Source of the DNA: an uncultured Caldisericota bacterium
GTDB taxonomy: Bacteria > Caldisericota > Caldisericia > Caldisericales > Caldisericaceae
NCBI GenBank assembly: GCA_913055585.1
Contig: CAJXKN010000002.1
Location: 1-40,669 of the forward strand
Direction: 5' to 3'
DNA: 40,669 nucleotides
Positions 9,414 through 33,802 of the stretch are shown piece by piece. Position 1 is the stretch's first letter. Each line of letters starts with the position of its first letter. A program made the position numbers and the translations under genes. A model generated the notes under the pieces. That model was given only the letters and a program-made list of their open reading frames with translations, did not search any database and was not told where the DNA came from.

Positions 9414-9441
9414 TTGACAAAATTTTTCATTTTGCTATGCT
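9414..9441 (+). promoter_or_regulatory. Sigma70-like promoter, probably inside the IS relic right end
   Basis: TTGACA - 16 nt - TATGCT; same arrangement at 12863-12890. Confidence 0.65.
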
Positions 9442-9459
9442 CAAAGTGATATATGGTAT

Positions 9460-9480
9460 TGTAGTTACCCAATTGGGGGA
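9460..9480 (+). repeat. Conserved 20-bp block, copy 1 (candidate IS terminal repeat or operator/leader element)
   Basis: TGTAGTTACCCAATTGGGGGA; near-identical to 12910-12929. Confidence 0.7.
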
Positions 9481-9502
9481 ATACTAAAAAGGAGGAATTT
9501 AT

Positions 9503-10957
9503 ATGATTAGAAAAACAGTTGTTCTTATCTTGATTTTTCTATTCTTATTTTCTGGCTTTATTTCGGTAGCTTCTGCACAGAATGTAGAGGCAGAAATCAC
9601 AAAGAAATCCTTTGATGGAGAGAATTATATTATTAAAGGACATATAGCGTTGAGTGAGCTTAATCCAAAGGGACAGCTACCAGAAGCGGATGACGTCGGA
9701 ATAGCGATGGACGTAATCGAAGAAAATGGCAAATTTCCAATGTTACCTGAATCAATGTACATTAGGCAACCAGAAGGATGTGAAACTCCATACACACTAA
9801 ACGGGAAGTGCCTTACAAATGAGGAATACTATGGGAAGAACTGTAAAACGATTTCTTTATGGAGCTGGTCCGTAAGACGGAATGCATGGGAAGCGGGTGC
9901 AGGGACCGGTCCGAATGGAGGATTTAGCTATGATGCAAGTAAAGTAAAGAGCCAATATGATGCCGATTTTGAAATAAAGATTCCAAAAGAATATGCAGAT
10001 AAAACGGTAAGGATTCGTGTAGATTTGACTCATAGTTGGGGAGGGCCTTTTGCTAGTTGGCCTGCATTTTCCTTTCATCATAAAATTCTTTACAGCGGAA
10101 CGTTGAAGGATATTGTATCCACTGGACCCAAGGAAAGTCCGACAGAAGTAATGAAGAAGATTCAGAATATAGTTATAAATACAATAAAAGAGCTAAAAAA
10201 TAGAAAGAATGCTAAGGATAAAGAAAAAGAAGATAAAGGTATGCACATCTTTCCTGAGAGCAAAACAAAGCAAATCGATGAAAAAGCTAAAGAGCAAAAG
10301 GAAAAGAACGAGGAGAAAATTAAAAAAATCGCAGAAAAGAAAAAGTTGGAAGTTATAAAGATAAAAAAGATTGATGGTACAGAAAAAATTAAAATTAAGG
10401 TAGATCAAAAGCCCGGTGTTTGGGACAAAATAAAATATTACGGTTCAAAATTTACAGGGAAAGTAGCAAGCAAAATACCCGGGGTAAAGTATGTAAGTAA
10501 CAAAGTTGAGGATTTGACTACACAAGTATCTGGCCTCGACCCTGGCAAAAAGACGCAACTTGCGTTAGGTGTAGACCCTCTTGCAGCAAGTCTTTACAAC
10601 AAATTTAATCGATATGAAGATGCAGAGAAGAAATACTCTACAATAAAAACTGTAATAACTCATACTTTGGCTAAACCGTTTTCTTATGTTCTTGATAAAT
10701 TAGGATGCTCAGTAAAACAGAGAACGGCATCTGCATATGAAGCAGAATATAAAGCTGTTTTGAAACGTGTAAAAGATGAAAACGGCCAAATTGATGTAGT
10801 TCGAAGGGATATTAAAGATGATGGCGTAATTATACATAAATGGATATTTAATCCATCTACTACTGCGTCAAATGGAAGCAAGGGCAGTTTCAAGCTCCCA
10901 GAGAAACGATTTGATTACTATATTGAGTTAGCAAAGAAAAGAGGTGAATTGCCATGA
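9503..10957 (+). CDS. Secreted protein of unknown function with Lys/Glu-rich central region
   Basis: Signal peptide MIRKTVVLILIFLFLFSGFISVASAQ; SD AAGGAGG; charged coiled-coil-like segment (about 210-305 aa); no family recognised. Confidence 0.8.
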   Translation: MIRKTVVLILIFLFLFSGFISVASAQNVEAEITKKSFDGENYIIKGHIALSELNPKGQLPEADDVGIAMDVIEENGKFPMLPESMYIRQPEGCETPYTLNGKCLTNEEYYGKNCKTISLWSWSVRRNAWEAGAGTGPNGGFSYDASKVKSQYDADFEIKIPKEYADKTVRIRVDLTHSWGGPFASWPAFSFHHKILYSGTLKDIVSTGPKESPTEVMKKIQNIVINTIKELKNRKNAKDKEKEDKGMHIFPESKTKQIDEKAKEQKEKNEEKIKKIAEKKKLEVIKIKKIDGTEKIKIKVDQKPGVWDKIKYYGSKFTGKVASKIPGVKYVSNKVEDLTTQVSGLDPGKKTQLALGVDPLAASLYNKFNRYEDAEKKYSTIKTVITHTLAKPFSYVLDKLGCSVKQRTASAYEAEYKAVLKRVKDENGQIDVVRRDIKDDGVIIHKWIFNPSTTASNGSKGSFKLPEKRFDYYIELAKKRGELP

Positions 10958-12501
10958 TGAAGAAACTACTTGTAATGATTCTTATACTGGTTTTGCCTAT
11001 TTTATTTATCTCATCCGTTTATGCAGATGCAGAGACAGATATATTTAACGAATTGAAATCTATGGGTTTTAACAATGCTTATGTAGCAATTGAGGATGAC
11101 TCGCTTCTTATGCGTTTTGAAACACCTGCTATTTCTGCAAACTTTTCTGATATTTTGCTTACAATTGCAATAAAAGGATATGAAAAATATCCTGCTGCAA
11201 AAACAGTTGTTGTTGAATCATACATAAACGATTCCCCTGCTGCTGGGGTAATAGCGCGAGGTGAGGACATTGCACAGTGGAAGAAAGGTGCACTTTCAGA
11301 TAACGACCTTTATGACCGTGCTGATTTTATTGATTTAAGGAGCGAAGAACAGGAGATAAGGGACGATTTGTCCGGGTTTAATGCGCTTGCAGACGAAGTT
11401 GCTATAGGGAAAAATACTGTAAACATAACAATGAACTATTTTGGGGAAGAGAAAGACTTTTTAAATGACTTTGCTGCAATGGCATTTACTGTGGTACAAG
11501 ATGTGCCTTATGCAGATACAATTACATTTACCTATCTTCCCCAAGAGGGAGATAAATATCTTGTTATGAGAACAAATGCAAATGATATTTTGTCTTTATA
11601 TGATGGAAGTTTGCCACAGGACGATTTTCTGAACAAATTGTATACAAAAGAAACAACGAAAATTCCAGGTTCTGTTTCTGGCACAAGCATTATTACTAAT
11701 TTCTTTAAAAAGATATTTGGAGGCATAAATACACAGAGTGGAAAATTTGGTAAAAATTTTATTTCTAATCCACTTATGAATCTTTTGGCTTCTGTCATCC
11801 TCTTTCTCTTTTCTATCGTCTTCTTTTTTATGGGCCGTTCCAGGAGAAAAAGAATTGCAGGTATTGTAAAAACAAGAAAAATATCACTTTCCCATTTCCC
11901 TAATAGAGAAAAGGTATATGGAAAGCTTGTTGGTATCATTGATACAATTCAGCCTTTGCAAGCCCCATTCTCTAAAAAGAATGTTGTAATGTACAACGCA
12001 CAATTACAAGAACTTCGTACAGTAGCGGATGACGAAGATAGAGGCTCAAAAGAGTGGACTAATATATGGAGAGATAAAAAAGAAATTGATTTCTTTGTAA
12101 AAGACCTAAATGGTGATAACAGTATCTTAATCAAAAAAGATGGCAAAAAGCCAAAGATAGACTTGCCTTATACTTTTAAAAGAGAGATAAGAAATAAACA
12201 AGACCCAATTGTTCAGCCATTCGTTGGAAAAGGGATCTTTAGCTGGGGAAGGAAACGGTTTAGAGCAGTTGAGAAAGCACTTGAGAAAGGAAGGAAAGTA
12301 TTTTTCATTGGTGGCATTAAGCATACTGAAAGTGGCTTCGAATTTATTGAAAGACCTCATTATCTTAATATGATAAGCGTGCATAGCGAAAAAAGACTTA
12401 CTTCTCATTATAGGAAGCTCTCTATAGTTTTTACATTTTTTGCCATTATTTTTATACTAGTTTCTATATATCTTATATTGCGTTACTTTGGAATGATTTA
12501 A
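10954..12501 (+). CDS. Membrane protein: secreted N-terminal domain, TM, cytoplasmic GIDE/BAM-like module, C-terminal TM
   Basis: Signal peptide, TM near NPLMNLLASVILFLFSIVFFFMG, then YGKLVGIIDTIQPLQAPFSKKNVVMYNAQLQE...W.NIWRDKKEIDFFVKD...GRKVFFIGGIKH..., C-terminal TM; layout resembles the GIDE (PF12483) domain of MUL1. ATGA coupling with upstream gene. Confidence 0.65.
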   Translation: MMKKLLVMILILVLPILFISSVYADAETDIFNELKSMGFNNAYVAIEDDSLLMRFETPAISANFSDILLTIAIKGYEKYPAAKTVVVESYINDSPAAGVIARGEDIAQWKKGALSDNDLYDRADFIDLRSEEQEIRDDLSGFNALADEVAIGKNTVNITMNYFGEEKDFLNDFAAMAFTVVQDVPYADTITFTYLPQEGDKYLVMRTNANDILSLYDGSLPQDDFLNKLYTKETTKIPGSVSGTSIITNFFKKIFGGINTQSGKFGKNFISNPLMNLLASVILFLFSIVFFFMGRSRRKRIAGIVKTRKISLSHFPNREKVYGKLVGIIDTIQPLQAPFSKKNVVMYNAQLQELRTVADDEDRGSKEWTNIWRDKKEIDFFVKDLNGDNSILIKKDGKKPKIDLPYTFKREIRNKQDPIVQPFVGKGIFSWGRKRFRAVEKALEKGRKVFFIGGIKHTESGFEFIERPHYLNMISVHSEKRLTSHYRKLSIVFTFFAIIFILVSIYLILRYFGMI

Positions 12502-12559: not shown

Positions 12560-12842
12560 ATAATTGGGTGACTTCTCAAAGTTATGAAATACATTTGAAA
12601 TGAGGGAGTCACCCTTGGGCTATTATAAAAAGAAGGCCATAAACAAATGGTAAAGTAGAAAGATTATATAAAGCTGTTGGAGAGGATTTATACAATAGAA
12701 ACTTCTACCTCACCTTAGAGGATATAGGCAATGATTTAAAAAAGTATTTTGAATACTATAATAAGATTAGGTTACATAGCGTTTAACTCCTTATGAAAAG
12801 TTAAAAGAACTGCAAGAGGGAGAGGATTTCAAAAGAGTTTAA
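12560..12842 (+). pseudogene. Second IS relic: candidate left-end sequence plus transposase C-terminus
   Basis: TNGKVERLYKAVGEDLYNRNFYLTLEDIGNDLKKYFEYYNKIRLHS then frameshift to LTPYEKLKELQEGEDFKRV*; AATTGGGTGACT near 12563 resembles the reverse complement of the right-end AGTTACCCAACT. Confidence 0.75.
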
Positions 12843-12862
12843 AGTTTATAATGTGCACCCTC

Positions 12863-12890
12863 TTGACAAGATTTTTAATTTTGTTAAACT
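12863..12890 (+). promoter_or_regulatory. Sigma70-like promoter at right end of second IS relic
   Basis: TTGACA - 16 nt - TAAACT. Confidence 0.6.
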
Positions 12891-12909
12891 TACGTATAAC
12901 ATATAGTTT

Positions 12910-12929
12910 TGTAGTTACCCAACTGGGGA
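12910..12929 (+). repeat. Conserved 20-bp block, copy 2
   Basis: TGTAGTTACCCAACTGGGGA. Confidence 0.7.
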
Positions 12930-12965
12930 GGGTGCTATACAAACACATTATACAAGGAGGTATAT

Positions 12966-13691
12966 ATGAAGAAACAACCACCAGAAAAGGTGTCGCAGAA
13001 TGAAGTTGTATTTAAAGTTGAAGAGTTAGAACCATTGTTGAGTCCGCCACCAATGAGTCTAAAGCCATGGACTCCGATGTACATTGAGCTGAGAGGCGGT
13101 AAAAAAATGGTAATCAGACAGATGAAGAAAGAAGAAGCTCCTGCTCTTCTCCCTTTCATTAAAAAATTTATGGATGTGGATCATGATTTTTACGACATTG
13201 TGGGAGCAAGAGTCTATGCCGAGATTTTAGGTTGGTATAGAAATAGACTAAAAGATCCTTATCTGCTCGTTGGTGTAATCGATGGTGAGCTTGCAGCACT
13301 GGGCAATGGAAGACTTATGAATGAAGATGTTAATATTAGTCTTCATACAATGGCTTTTAAGAGAGGTTTAAGAGCAGGTGCTGCTATGTACTATGCAAAA
13401 TGTTATTACACCTTTGAGATCCTCGGACAGAAGGAATTTTGGGCAACTTACGAGAGTTACAATGGATTTAAGAGATGGGGCATTGGTATGGCACAACCTT
13501 CTTATCCTTGGCCAGAACATCAGCATGAATTGGGTGGTGCAAAGATATTTTATGTAACAAAGGAATATTGGAATGCATCAATAAAGAAATACCTTGAGGA
13601 TTATCTTGGTACAACACTTAAATCTCCGGTGCCAGAAGATCTCCTGAAATCAAGTGAACATTTTACTATTCCCTCTGAAGCAAACGTGTAA
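12966..13691 (+). CDS. GNAT-like acetyltransferase-fold protein
   Basis: MVIRQMKKEEAPALLPFIKKFM...DPYLLVGVIDGELAALGNGRL; SD AAGGAGG. Fold call is tentative. Confidence 0.6.
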   Translation: MKKQPPEKVSQNEVVFKVEELEPLLSPPPMSLKPWTPMYIELRGGKKMVIRQMKKEEAPALLPFIKKFMDVDHDFYDIVGARVYAEILGWYRNRLKDPYLLVGVIDGELAALGNGRLMNEDVNISLHTMAFKRGLRAGAAMYYAKCYYTFEILGQKEFWATYESYNGFKRWGIGMAQPSYPWPEHQHELGGAKIFYVTKEYWNASIKKYLEDYLGTTLKSPVPEDLLKSSEHFTIPSEANV

Positions 13692-30203: not shown

Positions 30204-31049
30204 ATGAATATTTTTAAGAGGAAAAAGAAAATAATTAAAGTCCCTATCGTAACAGAGGAAGAAAGAGCAAAACCAGTAAGGTGTAAATCCTGTGGCAGGC
30301 TAATTAGCTATGCTGAACTAAAGAAAAATCTTAAGGTATGTCCATACTGTGGTTATCACTTCAGGATGACTGCAGGGGAAAGGATAAATCTCATTGCAGA
30401 TGAAGATACGTTCTCAGAAATTGATACGGAAGTAAAGGCTGTTGATATGCTGAATTTCAAGGATGTAGTTACGTATAAGAATCGTATAAAACAAGCAAAA
30501 GAAAGAACAGGACTTGATAGTGCAGCAGTCACTGGAAAAGCTAAAATAGGGGGATTTGATGCGGCTATTGGAACTTTTGCTTTTGAGTTCATTGGTGGGA
30601 GCTTGGGCTCGGCAACGGGCGAGAAAATCACAAGACTCATTGAGTATGCAAAAAAAAGAGAGTTGCCTCTGGTTATTGTTTTCTCTTCTGGCGGAGAGAG
30701 AATACAGGAAGGTATTTATTCATTAATGCAGGTTGCAAAAATAATTTATGCAATAGATTCATTTAAAGAGAGCGGGGGATTGTTTATATCAATTTTGACT
30801 AATCCCACCTACTGCGGTACAGCTACCATCGCTATGGCAGGCAATGTTGTAATAGCCGAGAAGGGTGCTTCTATTAGTATTTCTGGCCCACGTCTTGCAA
30901 AGCAAGTTGCAAAGAAAAATATCCTGCCTAAATTAGAACAGGCAGAGTCTCTGATAGAAAACGGACTTCTGGATATTGTTGTTGATAGGCATCTACTCAA
31001 ATCAACCATTGTTCGTCTTCTTAAATACTATAATAGGAGAAGGATATGA
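30204..31049 (+). CDS. Acetyl-CoA carboxylase carboxyltransferase beta subunit, divergent paralog (AccD1)
   Basis: Zn ribbon CKSCGRL...CPYCGYHF; FSSGGERIQEGIYSLMQVAK; diverged oxyanion-loop region. Confidence 0.85.
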   Translation: MNIFKRKKKIIKVPIVTEEERAKPVRCKSCGRLISYAELKKNLKVCPYCGYHFRMTAGERINLIADEDTFSEIDTEVKAVDMLNFKDVVTYKNRIKQAKERTGLDSAAVTGKAKIGGFDAAIGTFAFEFIGGSLGSATGEKITRLIEYAKKRELPLVIVFSSGGERIQEGIYSLMQVAKIIYAIDSFKESGGLFISILTNPTYCGTATIAMAGNVVIAEKGASISISGPRLAKQVAKKNILPKLEQAESLIENGLLDIVVDRHLLKSTIVRLLKYYNRRRI

Positions 31050-31978
31050 AATACTTACTTCAGTTTGAAAGATCTCTAGAGCCTTTATATAAGGAGTTAG
31101 AAGAAAGAAAAAAAGAAGAAAAACCAACAATTTATACAGAGAAAAAAATTCAGCAAGAACTACAAAAAATCTACAGCAACCTTACGCCTTATCAAGTCTC
31201 GCAGATTGCACGTCATCCTGATAGGCCGCATACAACGGATTATATCAATGCACTCTTTACCGATTTTCTTGAGCTGCACGGTGACAGAAAATTTGGAGAT
31301 GACCCTGCAATTATTGCAGGAATAGGAAATTTGAGAGACATAACGATTACCGTTATAGGGAGTAGAAGAGGATATACATTAAAAGATATGCTTTCCTGCC
31401 ATTATGGTATGATACAACCAGAGGGATTCAGGAAAATGGCAAGGATTATTAATCTTGCTTCCCATACGTTTAAGAGTCCTATTGTTACATTTATTGATAC
31501 ACCCGGTGCACTTGTGTCCACAAATGCGGAGAGAAAAGGACAGATAGAAGCAATTTCCGAGCCCATACTTGCATTGTTTAAAGCAGAAGTCCCTGTTATT
31601 GCTGTCGTTATTGGCGAAGGGATTGGTTTAGGAGCTCTTAGTATGAGTATTGCAAATAAAATACTTATGCTGAAATACTCATTTTTTTCAGTAATCTCAG
31701 CGGAAGGAGGTGCATCAATCCTGTACAACGACAAAAGGAAAAGTGAAGAACTGTCATCTAACCTGAAATTCACAGCAGAAAATCTATTAAATAATGGTAT
31801 TATTGATAGAGTAATTGATGAACCAATCGGCGGCGCTCAGAGGAACAGAGAAACTGTTATAAAAGCAACCGGAGATGCAATTTATAGTGAGCTTGAAATG
31901 CTGCTCAAGGAAAATGGAAATAAGCTAAAGGAAAACCGTATAGAAAGATACAGGAAAATTGGAATCTATGCTGATTAG
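31046..31978 (+). CDS. Acetyl-CoA carboxylase carboxyltransferase alpha subunit, divergent paralog (AccA1)
   Basis: HPDRPHTTDYINALFTDFLELHGDRKFGDDPAI; GEGIGLGALSM where canonical AccA has GEGGSGGAL. Confidence 0.85.
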   Translation: MKYLLQFERSLEPLYKELEERKKEEKPTIYTEKKIQQELQKIYSNLTPYQVSQIARHPDRPHTTDYINALFTDFLELHGDRKFGDDPAIIAGIGNLRDITITVIGSRRGYTLKDMLSCHYGMIQPEGFRKMARIINLASHTFKSPIVTFIDTPGALVSTNAERKGQIEAISEPILALFKAEVPVIAVVIGEGIGLGALSMSIANKILMLKYSFFSVISAEGGASILYNDKRKSEELSSNLKFTAENLLNNGIIDRVIDEPIGGAQRNRETVIKATGDAIYSELEMLLKENGNKLKENRIERYRKIGIYAD

Positions 31979-32024
31979 TAATAAAATATTGTCTTTATTT
32001 AGAAGATGAAGTATAATGAGATGA

Positions 32025-32876
32025 ATGATGAGCTTATTTAGAAAAAGAAAAAAGATTGTTGTTCCGGTAATTACAAAAGAATACGGAGAGAATAAATGGA
32101 TTCGCTGTAAATCCTGCGGCAATCTCATTTACTATAAGGAGCTTAAGGAGAATCTGAAAGTGTGCCCGAAGTGTGGCTATCACTTCAGGCTCACAGCGCA
32201 GGAGCGACTGGAACAAATCATAGATAAAGATACATTTGAGGAATGGGATGCAGCACTTTCCTCGGATGACCCATTGAAATTTAAGGCACTGGAATCATAC
32301 AAAGAGAGATTAGAGCGTGCTGAAAAAAATAGTAAAATAAAAAGTGCAATTATCACAGGCAAAGGAAAGCTCAACGGTTATGATACTGCTATAGGAATAC
32401 TGGATTTTGGATTCATTGGGGGAAGTCTTGGCTCTGTAATGGGTGAAAAGATAAGAAGACTTGCTGAAAGAGCATCTAAAGAGAAGTTACCTCTTATTAT
32501 TGTATCTGCTTCCGGTGGTGCACGAATGCAGGAAGGTATTATCTCTCTTATGCAAATGGCAAAAACGGCTGCAGCAATTAACAGTTATAAAAAGGGTGGT
32601 GGTTTGTATATATCTGTTCTTGTCAATCCTACCTATGGAGGGACAACTGCGAGTTTTGCAATGCTTGGTGATATTAATATCGCTGAAAAAGGTGCAAAAA
32701 TTGGATTTGCAGGTCCCAGAGTTATTGAGCAAATTATGAAAAAGAAATTACCGAAAGACTTCCAATCAGCAGAATTTCTATTAAAACATGGATTTCTGGA
32801 TGCTGTTCTTGAAAGGAAATTACTGAAGCCTACACTTAGCCAGATTCTTTCATACTATCGAGGTAAAAAATGGTAA
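32025..32876 (+). CDS. accD: Acetyl-CoA carboxylase carboxyltransferase beta subunit (canonical)
   Basis: CKSCGNL...CPKCGYHF; SASGGARMQEGIISLMQMAK; FAMLGDINIAEKGAKIGFAGPRVIEQ. Confidence 0.94.
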   Translation: MMSLFRKRKKIVVPVITKEYGENKWIRCKSCGNLIYYKELKENLKVCPKCGYHFRLTAQERLEQIIDKDTFEEWDAALSSDDPLKFKALESYKERLERAEKNSKIKSAIITGKGKLNGYDTAIGILDFGFIGGSLGSVMGEKIRRLAERASKEKLPLIIVSASGGARMQEGIISLMQMAKTAAAINSYKKGGGLYISVLVNPTYGGTTASFAMLGDINIAEKGAKIGFAGPRVIEQIMKKKLPKDFQSAEFLLKHGFLDAVLERKLLKPTLSQILSYYRGKKW

Positions 32877-33802
32877 AACTTCTTTCATTTGAAAAAAGCT
32901 TAAAACCTCTCTATGAGGAATTGAAAGAGAAAAGAAAAAATGCGCAGTCAACGGATTATATAGAAGAGAAAATAGCAGAAACACTTAAAAAAATTTACAG
33001 TAACCTTACCCCCTATGACATTGTGCAGATTGCACGTCACCCTGATAGACCGCATACAACAGATTATATCAATGCACTCTTTACCGATTTTCTTGAGCTG
33101 CACGGTGATAGAAAATTTGGAGATGACCCTGCAATTATTGCAGGCATAGGATACTTTAATGGAAAGGTTACAGGTGTGATAGGACACAGAAAAGGGAGGA
33201 ATTTAAAAGAAAACTTGAGATACAACTTTGGTATGGCTGAGCCAGAAGGATATAGAAAAGCTTTGCGTGTTGCACATCTCATTTCAGAAAGATTCAAAGC
33301 GCCCATTATCACGTTGCTTGATACTCCAGGAGCCTCTCCTACAATAGGAGCGGAAGAAAGGGGACAGGCAGAGGCCATTGCATATAACCTGCAAGAATTA
33401 TTTAATATACCTACTCCCATTGTAGCTATTGTTATTGGTGAAGGTGGTAGTGGGGGTGCTCTGGGTATTGGCATAGCAGACAAACTTCTTATGCTTAAAT
33501 ATTCAATCTATTCTGTTATTTCACCAGAAGGCTGTGCATCAATCCTCTGGAGAGATGCATCCAAAGCAAAGGAAGCAGCAAATGCTTTGAAACTTACGGC
33601 AAATGACCTGTATAAGTTACATATAGTAGATAAAATTATTGAGGAGCCTGCTGGCGGAGCACATAGACATAGAGAAGAAGTCATACAAGCAGTGGGAAAG
33701 GAAGCTCAAAAAGCACTTAATACTTTATCCCGATTGAGTAAGAAAAAGCTTCTTGAAAAAAGAAAGGAAAAATTCATCAATATAGGGGTGTACAATGAGT
33801 AA
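32870..33802 (+). CDS. accA: Acetyl-CoA carboxylase carboxyltransferase alpha subunit (canonical)
   Basis: DTPGASPTIGAEERGQAEAIA, GEGGSGGALGIGIADK, SPEGCASILWRD. Confidence 0.94.
   Translation: MVKLLSFEKSLKPLYEELKEKRKNAQSTDYIEEKIAETLKKIYSNLTPYDIVQIARHPDRPHTTDYINALFTDFLELHGDRKFGDDPAIIAGIGYFNGKVTGVIGHRKGRNLKENLRYNFGMAEPEGYRKALRVAHLISERFKAPIITLLDTPGASPTIGAEERGQAEAIAYNLQELFNIPTPIVAIVIGEGGSGGALGIGIADKLLMLKYSIYSVISPEGCASILWRDASKAKEAANALKLTANDLYKLHIVDKIIEEPAGGAHRHREEVIQAVGKEAQKALNTLSRLSKKKLLEKRKEKFINIGVYNE

Follow-up and report, generated by a model that had tools for sequence, protein, structure and literature searches.

Two overlapping genes of a Caldisericaceae-type genome encode a lysine-rich protein with an export signal (p1) and a membrane protein (p2) in which a duplicated outside domain is joined to a GIDE/BAM domain, and the two genes were adjacent in all five genomes of the family in which they were detected. 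What is new here is the architecture of p2 together with its partner p1, within a prokaryotic domain family that is already known. We tentatively propose, with slightly less than even confidence, that p1 and p2 would bind each other and form a two-protein anchor/sensor complex of the envelope across the inner membrane in some Caldisericaceae. The window, i.e. the whole stretch of DNA analysed, comprises 40,669 nucleotides of contig CAJXKN010000002.1 from an uncultured Caldisericota bacterium. The host MAG (G000) is of the Caldisericaceae type (1.29 Mb, 140 contigs, 75.5% complete), and its named relatives are from Caldisericaceae/Caldisericales.

A conserved pair of overlapping genes

The two open reading frames were recovered at the coordinates first read from the sequence (Table 1). 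They are co-directional, and the overlap of four nucleotides, ATGA ('GCCATGATGAAG'), is kept in 5/5 genomes. Both are real genes, with homologues at 43-50% protein identity in other genera. Orthologues in G001, G004, G005 and G009 are 45-49% identical to the window protein in the case of p1 and 31-43% in the case of p2. Each gene is under purifying selection (dN/dS = 0.08 for p1 and 0.08 for p2, L023 vs L024, two close genomes).

Table 1. Coordinates of the p1-p2 pair, its predicted domains and the upstream element in the window.
Feature	Position	Strand	Description and evidence
p1	9503..10957	+	exported Lys-rich protein, 484 aa; ORF; four orthologues at 45-49% identity; dN/dS 0.08
p1 signal peptide, residues 1-25 (...VASA|Q)	9503..9577	+	hydrophobic 5-23, then AxA
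p1 N-terminal Ig-like beta-sandwich domain, residues 27-205	9581..10117	+	AlphaFold pLDDT mostly 80-94
p1 Lys-rich middle, residues 206-345	10118..10537	+	predicted helical, low confidence; pLDDT < 60 over most
p1 C-terminal helical module, residues 346-484	10538..10954	+	helices, pLDDT mostly 80-86 over residues ~410-484
p2	10954..12501	+	bitopic membrane protein, outside tandem domain and predicted cytoplasmic GIDE/BAM domain, 515 aa; ORF; orthologues; PF12483
p2 signal peptide	10954..11025	+	hydrophobic 5-23, then acidic residues
p2 outside domain repeat 1, residues 26-122	11029..11319	+	model HEEHEEHH, pLDDT ~70-90
p2 outside domain repeat 2, residues 131-234	11344..11655	+	same element order as repeat 1
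p2 TM1, residues 274-292	11773..11829	+	hydropathy; 6 K/R in next 15 residues
p2 predicted cytoplasmic GIDE/BAM region, residues 296-490	11839..12423	+	PF12483; class-level profile match E 1.4e-27
p2 TM2, residues 491-509	12424..12480	+	hydropathy, basic residues before
Promoter and hairpin/dyad element upstream of p1	9414..9489	+	-35 TTGACA, -10 TATGCT; one of 13 genome copies

A survey of gene neighbourhoods confirmed recurrent pairing. Of the two outcomes named in the earlier note as refuting its reading, no match to GIDE/BAM or genes that never co-occur in other genomes, neither was obtained. p1 was detected in 5/49 genomes of the class and full-length p2 in the same five of the 54 genomes of the phylum, the G001 copy of p2 being cut by a contig end. 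The genes were adjacent in every case (5/5), which is the constant pairing expected of a two-component envelope complex. Neither p1 without p2 (49 class genomes) nor full-length p2 without p1 (54 phylum genomes) was found. The carriers (G000, G001, G004, G005 and G009), which are heat-loving bacteria, represent four genera among 18 Caldisericaceae genomes. The genes flanking the pair differ between genera, common flanks being restricted to two genomes of the same genus, and this indicates that the pair is a conserved unit. It is missing from 13/18 genomes of the family, several of which are 99% complete, and is therefore not a core part of the envelope. The overlap is of the type found in translational coupling, and genetic coupling alone does not prove contact between the products.

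p2 and the GIDE/BAM family

The earlier note had likened part of p2 to the GIDE domain of MUL1, a human mitochondrial protein with a GIDE/BAM domain and a ubiquitin-ligase part. Comparison with PF12483 agreed with this assignment: the profile matched residues 363-505 (12040-12468) with 31.1 bits, above the curated cut-off of 23.6 (E=1.9e-7). The p2 of G005 also passed the cut-off, and those of G004 and G009 were under it but with E < 1e-3. At E <= 1, 4/5 orthologues matched the profile, the fifth being cut by a contig end. In addition, 241-aa TM-GIDE-TM proteins from a sister family of the same class aligned to p2 over 227 columns (hhalign E=1.4e-27). Judged by these profile matches, p2 is a true GIDE/BAM-family protein. 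The AlphaFold model of the GIDE region, built from only five sequences, had a pLDDT < 50, and no usable PDB template match was obtained.

The layout initially deduced for p2 (an outside N-terminal domain, a TM segment, a cytoplasmic GIDE-like segment and a second TM segment, with no RING) was consistent with the sequence. The GIDE domain is enclosed by two TM segments (residues 274-292 and 491-509), with basic residues after the first and before the second in the full-length orthologues, and is therefore predicted to be cytoplasmic by the positive-inside rule. The protein ends after TM2 and contains no cysteine. The outside region is duplicated (hhalign P 1.7e-5 over 97 columns), and the model, in its fairly confident part, displays the HEEHEEH order twice. 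Foldseek revealed a weak resemblance of this tandem domain to CamS and to tandem GerMN domains.

The Pfam family name and the common GIDE domain are all that would suggest for p2 a MUL1-like activity as a membrane-bound E3 ligase of the ubiquitin/SUMO type. With neither a RING nor a cysteine p2 is not an E3 ligase, so that this activity is refuted by the sequence and its likelihood is negligible. BAM proteins generally lack a RING in prokaryotes, where this is the known norm (PMC4457424). p2 shares with the prokaryotic BAM/GIDE proteins (PF12483; ~241 aa in the sister family of the class) the TM-GIDE-TM arrangement, the missing RING and a GIDE domain predicted to be cytoplasmic (positive-inside), to which it adds a signal peptide, a duplicated outside domain of ~210 residues and a dedicated exported partner. 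In MUL1/MAPL of animals and plants the GIDE/BAM domain likewise lies between two TM segments. p2 differs from these proteins by the missing RING, by its extra outside domain and by the predicted cytoplasmic position of GIDE, whereas the BAM domain of MAPL faces the intermembrane space (PMC4457424).

p1, a basic protein with an export signal

The first description of p1 as a secreted, Lys-rich protein agreed with its sequence. It has a signal peptide whose A25-Q26 junction is invariant, Desulfobacterota relatives included. Lysine accounts for 14.7% of the protein overall and for 26% of residues 205-345; the protein is basic and has no TM segment besides the signal peptide. The N-terminal domain contains an invariant motif, H-x-x-GGP(F/Y)A-x-WP, and gave weak Ig/arrestin-like matches in Foldseek. 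Foldseek returned low-TM matches only for both p1 and p2, and claims on fold are therefore limited to an Ig-like sandwich in p1 and a tandem alpha/beta domain in p2. Searches of solved structures by sequence gave nothing usable.

That p1 matches nothing proved correct for Pfam and NCBIfam, in which no family was hit, but Desulfobacterota encode homologues of its N-terminal domain next to secreted PAN/WSC proteins. Outside the phylum the domain was detected in four genomes (L027, L028, L036 and L037); they belong to Desulfobacterota and to one small phylum, and the C-terminal parts of the proteins vary. The exported N-terminal domain is homologous to that of p1 (41% identity over the domain in L027/L028), but the C-terminal parts differ from that of p1. 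A gene for a secreted PAN or PAN/WSC protein is a neighbour in each of the four loci (Pfam on three), and we noticed no GIDE gene around any of these loci. The C-terminal module of p1 has so far been found in Caldisericaceae only, with no relative outside the pair.

Other candidate assignments for p1 were rejected. The C-terminal RDIxxDGVI does not qualify as an EF-hand loop, ligand positions 3 and 12 being variable in an alignment read by eye. The idea of p1 as a LemA substitute was dropped, since its C-terminal part gave no match to the LemA profile (hhalign P 0.58). Two part-against-part comparisons gave nothing convincing for homology between p1 and p2.

These data bear on a reading in which no physical complex exists: p1 would be exported as a protein of the surface or matrix, and p2 would be a membrane factor for its export, folding or turnover, the two genes being translationally coupled. 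The ATGA coupling gives stoichiometric production and not necessarily binding, and the p1 N-terminal domain accompanies PAN/WSC surface proteins in Desulfobacterota without GIDE. However, p2 matched no protease, chaperone or translocase family, and neither p1 nor full-length p2 was seen alone in the genomes surveyed (49 of the class, 54 of the phylum). We regard this possibility as doubtful, although it keeps an appreciable share of the probability.

Gene context of GIDE in other genomes

A GIDE domain was present in 13 of 395 Desulfobacterota-type genomes. A LemA gene adjoins it in 10/10 loci with readable flanks, the other three lying near contig ends; the identity of the LemA neighbours was confirmed by Pfam in two loci. 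In the class of the window, a strong GIDE gene follows immediately on a PspA/IM30 gene (G026:C12; L017, L039). Both kinds of loci resemble the p1-p2 pair in that GIDE comes with an extra N-terminal region and a second envelope-related gene. They differ from it since the partner of p2 is p1, which has no similarity to LemA, and since p2 has no EF-hand-like insert. No LemA gene adjoins p2, the neighbours of which are p1 and unrelated genes. We found no relevant paper on GIDE with LemA or PspA, nor any direct functional data on prokaryotic GIDE proteins in the literature searched.

A further reading makes p2 a one-component receptor and p1 a bystander, the tandem outside domain sensing an external ligand and signalling via GIDE. 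The duplicated alpha/beta domain, which weakly resembles CamS and tandem GerMN domains, would suit such a receptor. The Desulfobacterota GIDE proteins have N-terminal regions different from that of p2, together with an EF-hand-like loop, which indicates that GIDE is a mobile module. Against a receptor acting alone stand the constant pairing with p1 and the lack of any kinase, cyclase or DNA-binding output domain or partner regulator gene, and we consider it improbable.

In the GIDE proteins beside LemA (L040, L041, L043, L045, L047-L050), the stretch that leads from GIDE to the last TM segment contains the EF-hand-like loop (e.g. FDLNRDGQVDTEEWE). GIDE-LemA with this loop is a possible candidate for a calcium-sensing unit.

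Proposed role of the pair

The LemA and PspA neighbours point to a role of GIDE in membrane-associated work, and this guilt by association is the main support for the anchor/sensor complex that we favour. In such a complex p1 would reside outside the cytoplasmic membrane, where the Ig-like domain and the basic middle part may hold an acidic or carbohydrate-rich envelope layer. The C-terminal module of p1 would dock on the tandem domain of p2, and p2 would relay this contact through the membrane to a membrane-hugging GIDE domain acting at the inner leaflet. By analogy with the LemA- or PspA-linked GIDE proteins, this domain may help to maintain or scaffold the inner membrane or to report on its state. 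A more speculative proposal, which we hold to be rather unlikely, is that of a dedicated link through the Caldisericaceae envelope, in which a duplicated receptor domain would hold an exported, basic, adhesin-like p1 and connect it via the membrane to BAM. Attaching the membrane to the envelope, or sensing stress, would then be an ancestral role of BAM domains that predates ubiquitin.

The earlier note had presented the pair as the best candidate for an undescribed two-component envelope system. The constant pairing speaks for this view, but RING-less prokaryotic BAM proteins had already been described and the pair is confined to 5/18 genomes of the family; the claim is plausible and unproven. 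The ancestral function of BAM/GIDE is an open question (PMC4457424). A RING-less bacterial GIDE protein that comes with a receptor-like outside domain of its own and a constant exported partner lends itself to direct testing. The pair also bears on a phylum whose type species has an outer-membrane-like layer by microscopy, yet in which neither BamA nor outer-membrane proteins could be detected (PMC4104836).

Genomic surroundings

The pair sits within a purine-catabolism island, with xanthine dehydrogenase subunits, an amidohydrolase and a BmpA-type nucleoside ABC transporter to its left and AllH, FdrA, AllG, a second xanthine dehydrogenase and a xanthine/uracil permease to its right. A catabolic island between IS relics had been proposed; the island and the right relic, a decayed C-terminal fragment of a transposase (YYNKIRLHS...; FEYYNKIRLHS) at 12625-12850, were indeed present. 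Left of the pair no transposase fragment was found, but just a copy of the dispersed promoter/hairpin element that the right side also has (12863-12943). About 306 bp of the 12625-12850 relic region recurs in G000:C91 with 78% identity.

The adjoining transposase relic and the patchy distribution could suggest a phage, plasmid or defence islet. However, the G+C content of the pair (33-37%) is close to that of its flanks, and no relatives were detected in phages (p1), plasmids (p1, p2), viral contigs (p1, p2), PHROGs or PADLOC. Such an origin was rejected on these searches and appears highly improbable.

The dispersed element, of ~80 nt, consists of TTGACA-N16/17-TATACT and the dyad TTTTGTAGT[TC]ACCCAATTTAGGGAACACTACAAAA. 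A covariance model detected 13 copies in G000, those outside the window being on C41, C91 (two), C9, C14, C11, C35, C94, C97, C27 and C25, and fewer in some relatives (G010, G006, G008). Most copies closely precede a gene of the same orientation, and the hairpin has weak covariation support. The element is a candidate operator, RNA leader or mobile promoter, and provides the pair with its own promoter-like sequence and hairpin. It was not found upstream of p1 in the other pair-bearing genomes, and is thus a regulatory element acquired locally that does not belong to the p1-p2 system.

Elsewhere in the window, the purine island encodes a 241-aa protein at 12966-13691 with no Pfam or NCBIfam match, and in the region 30204-33802 at least two genes (30204, 32025) encode carboxyltransferases with an ACC zinc ribbon, beside a biotin carboxylase gene.
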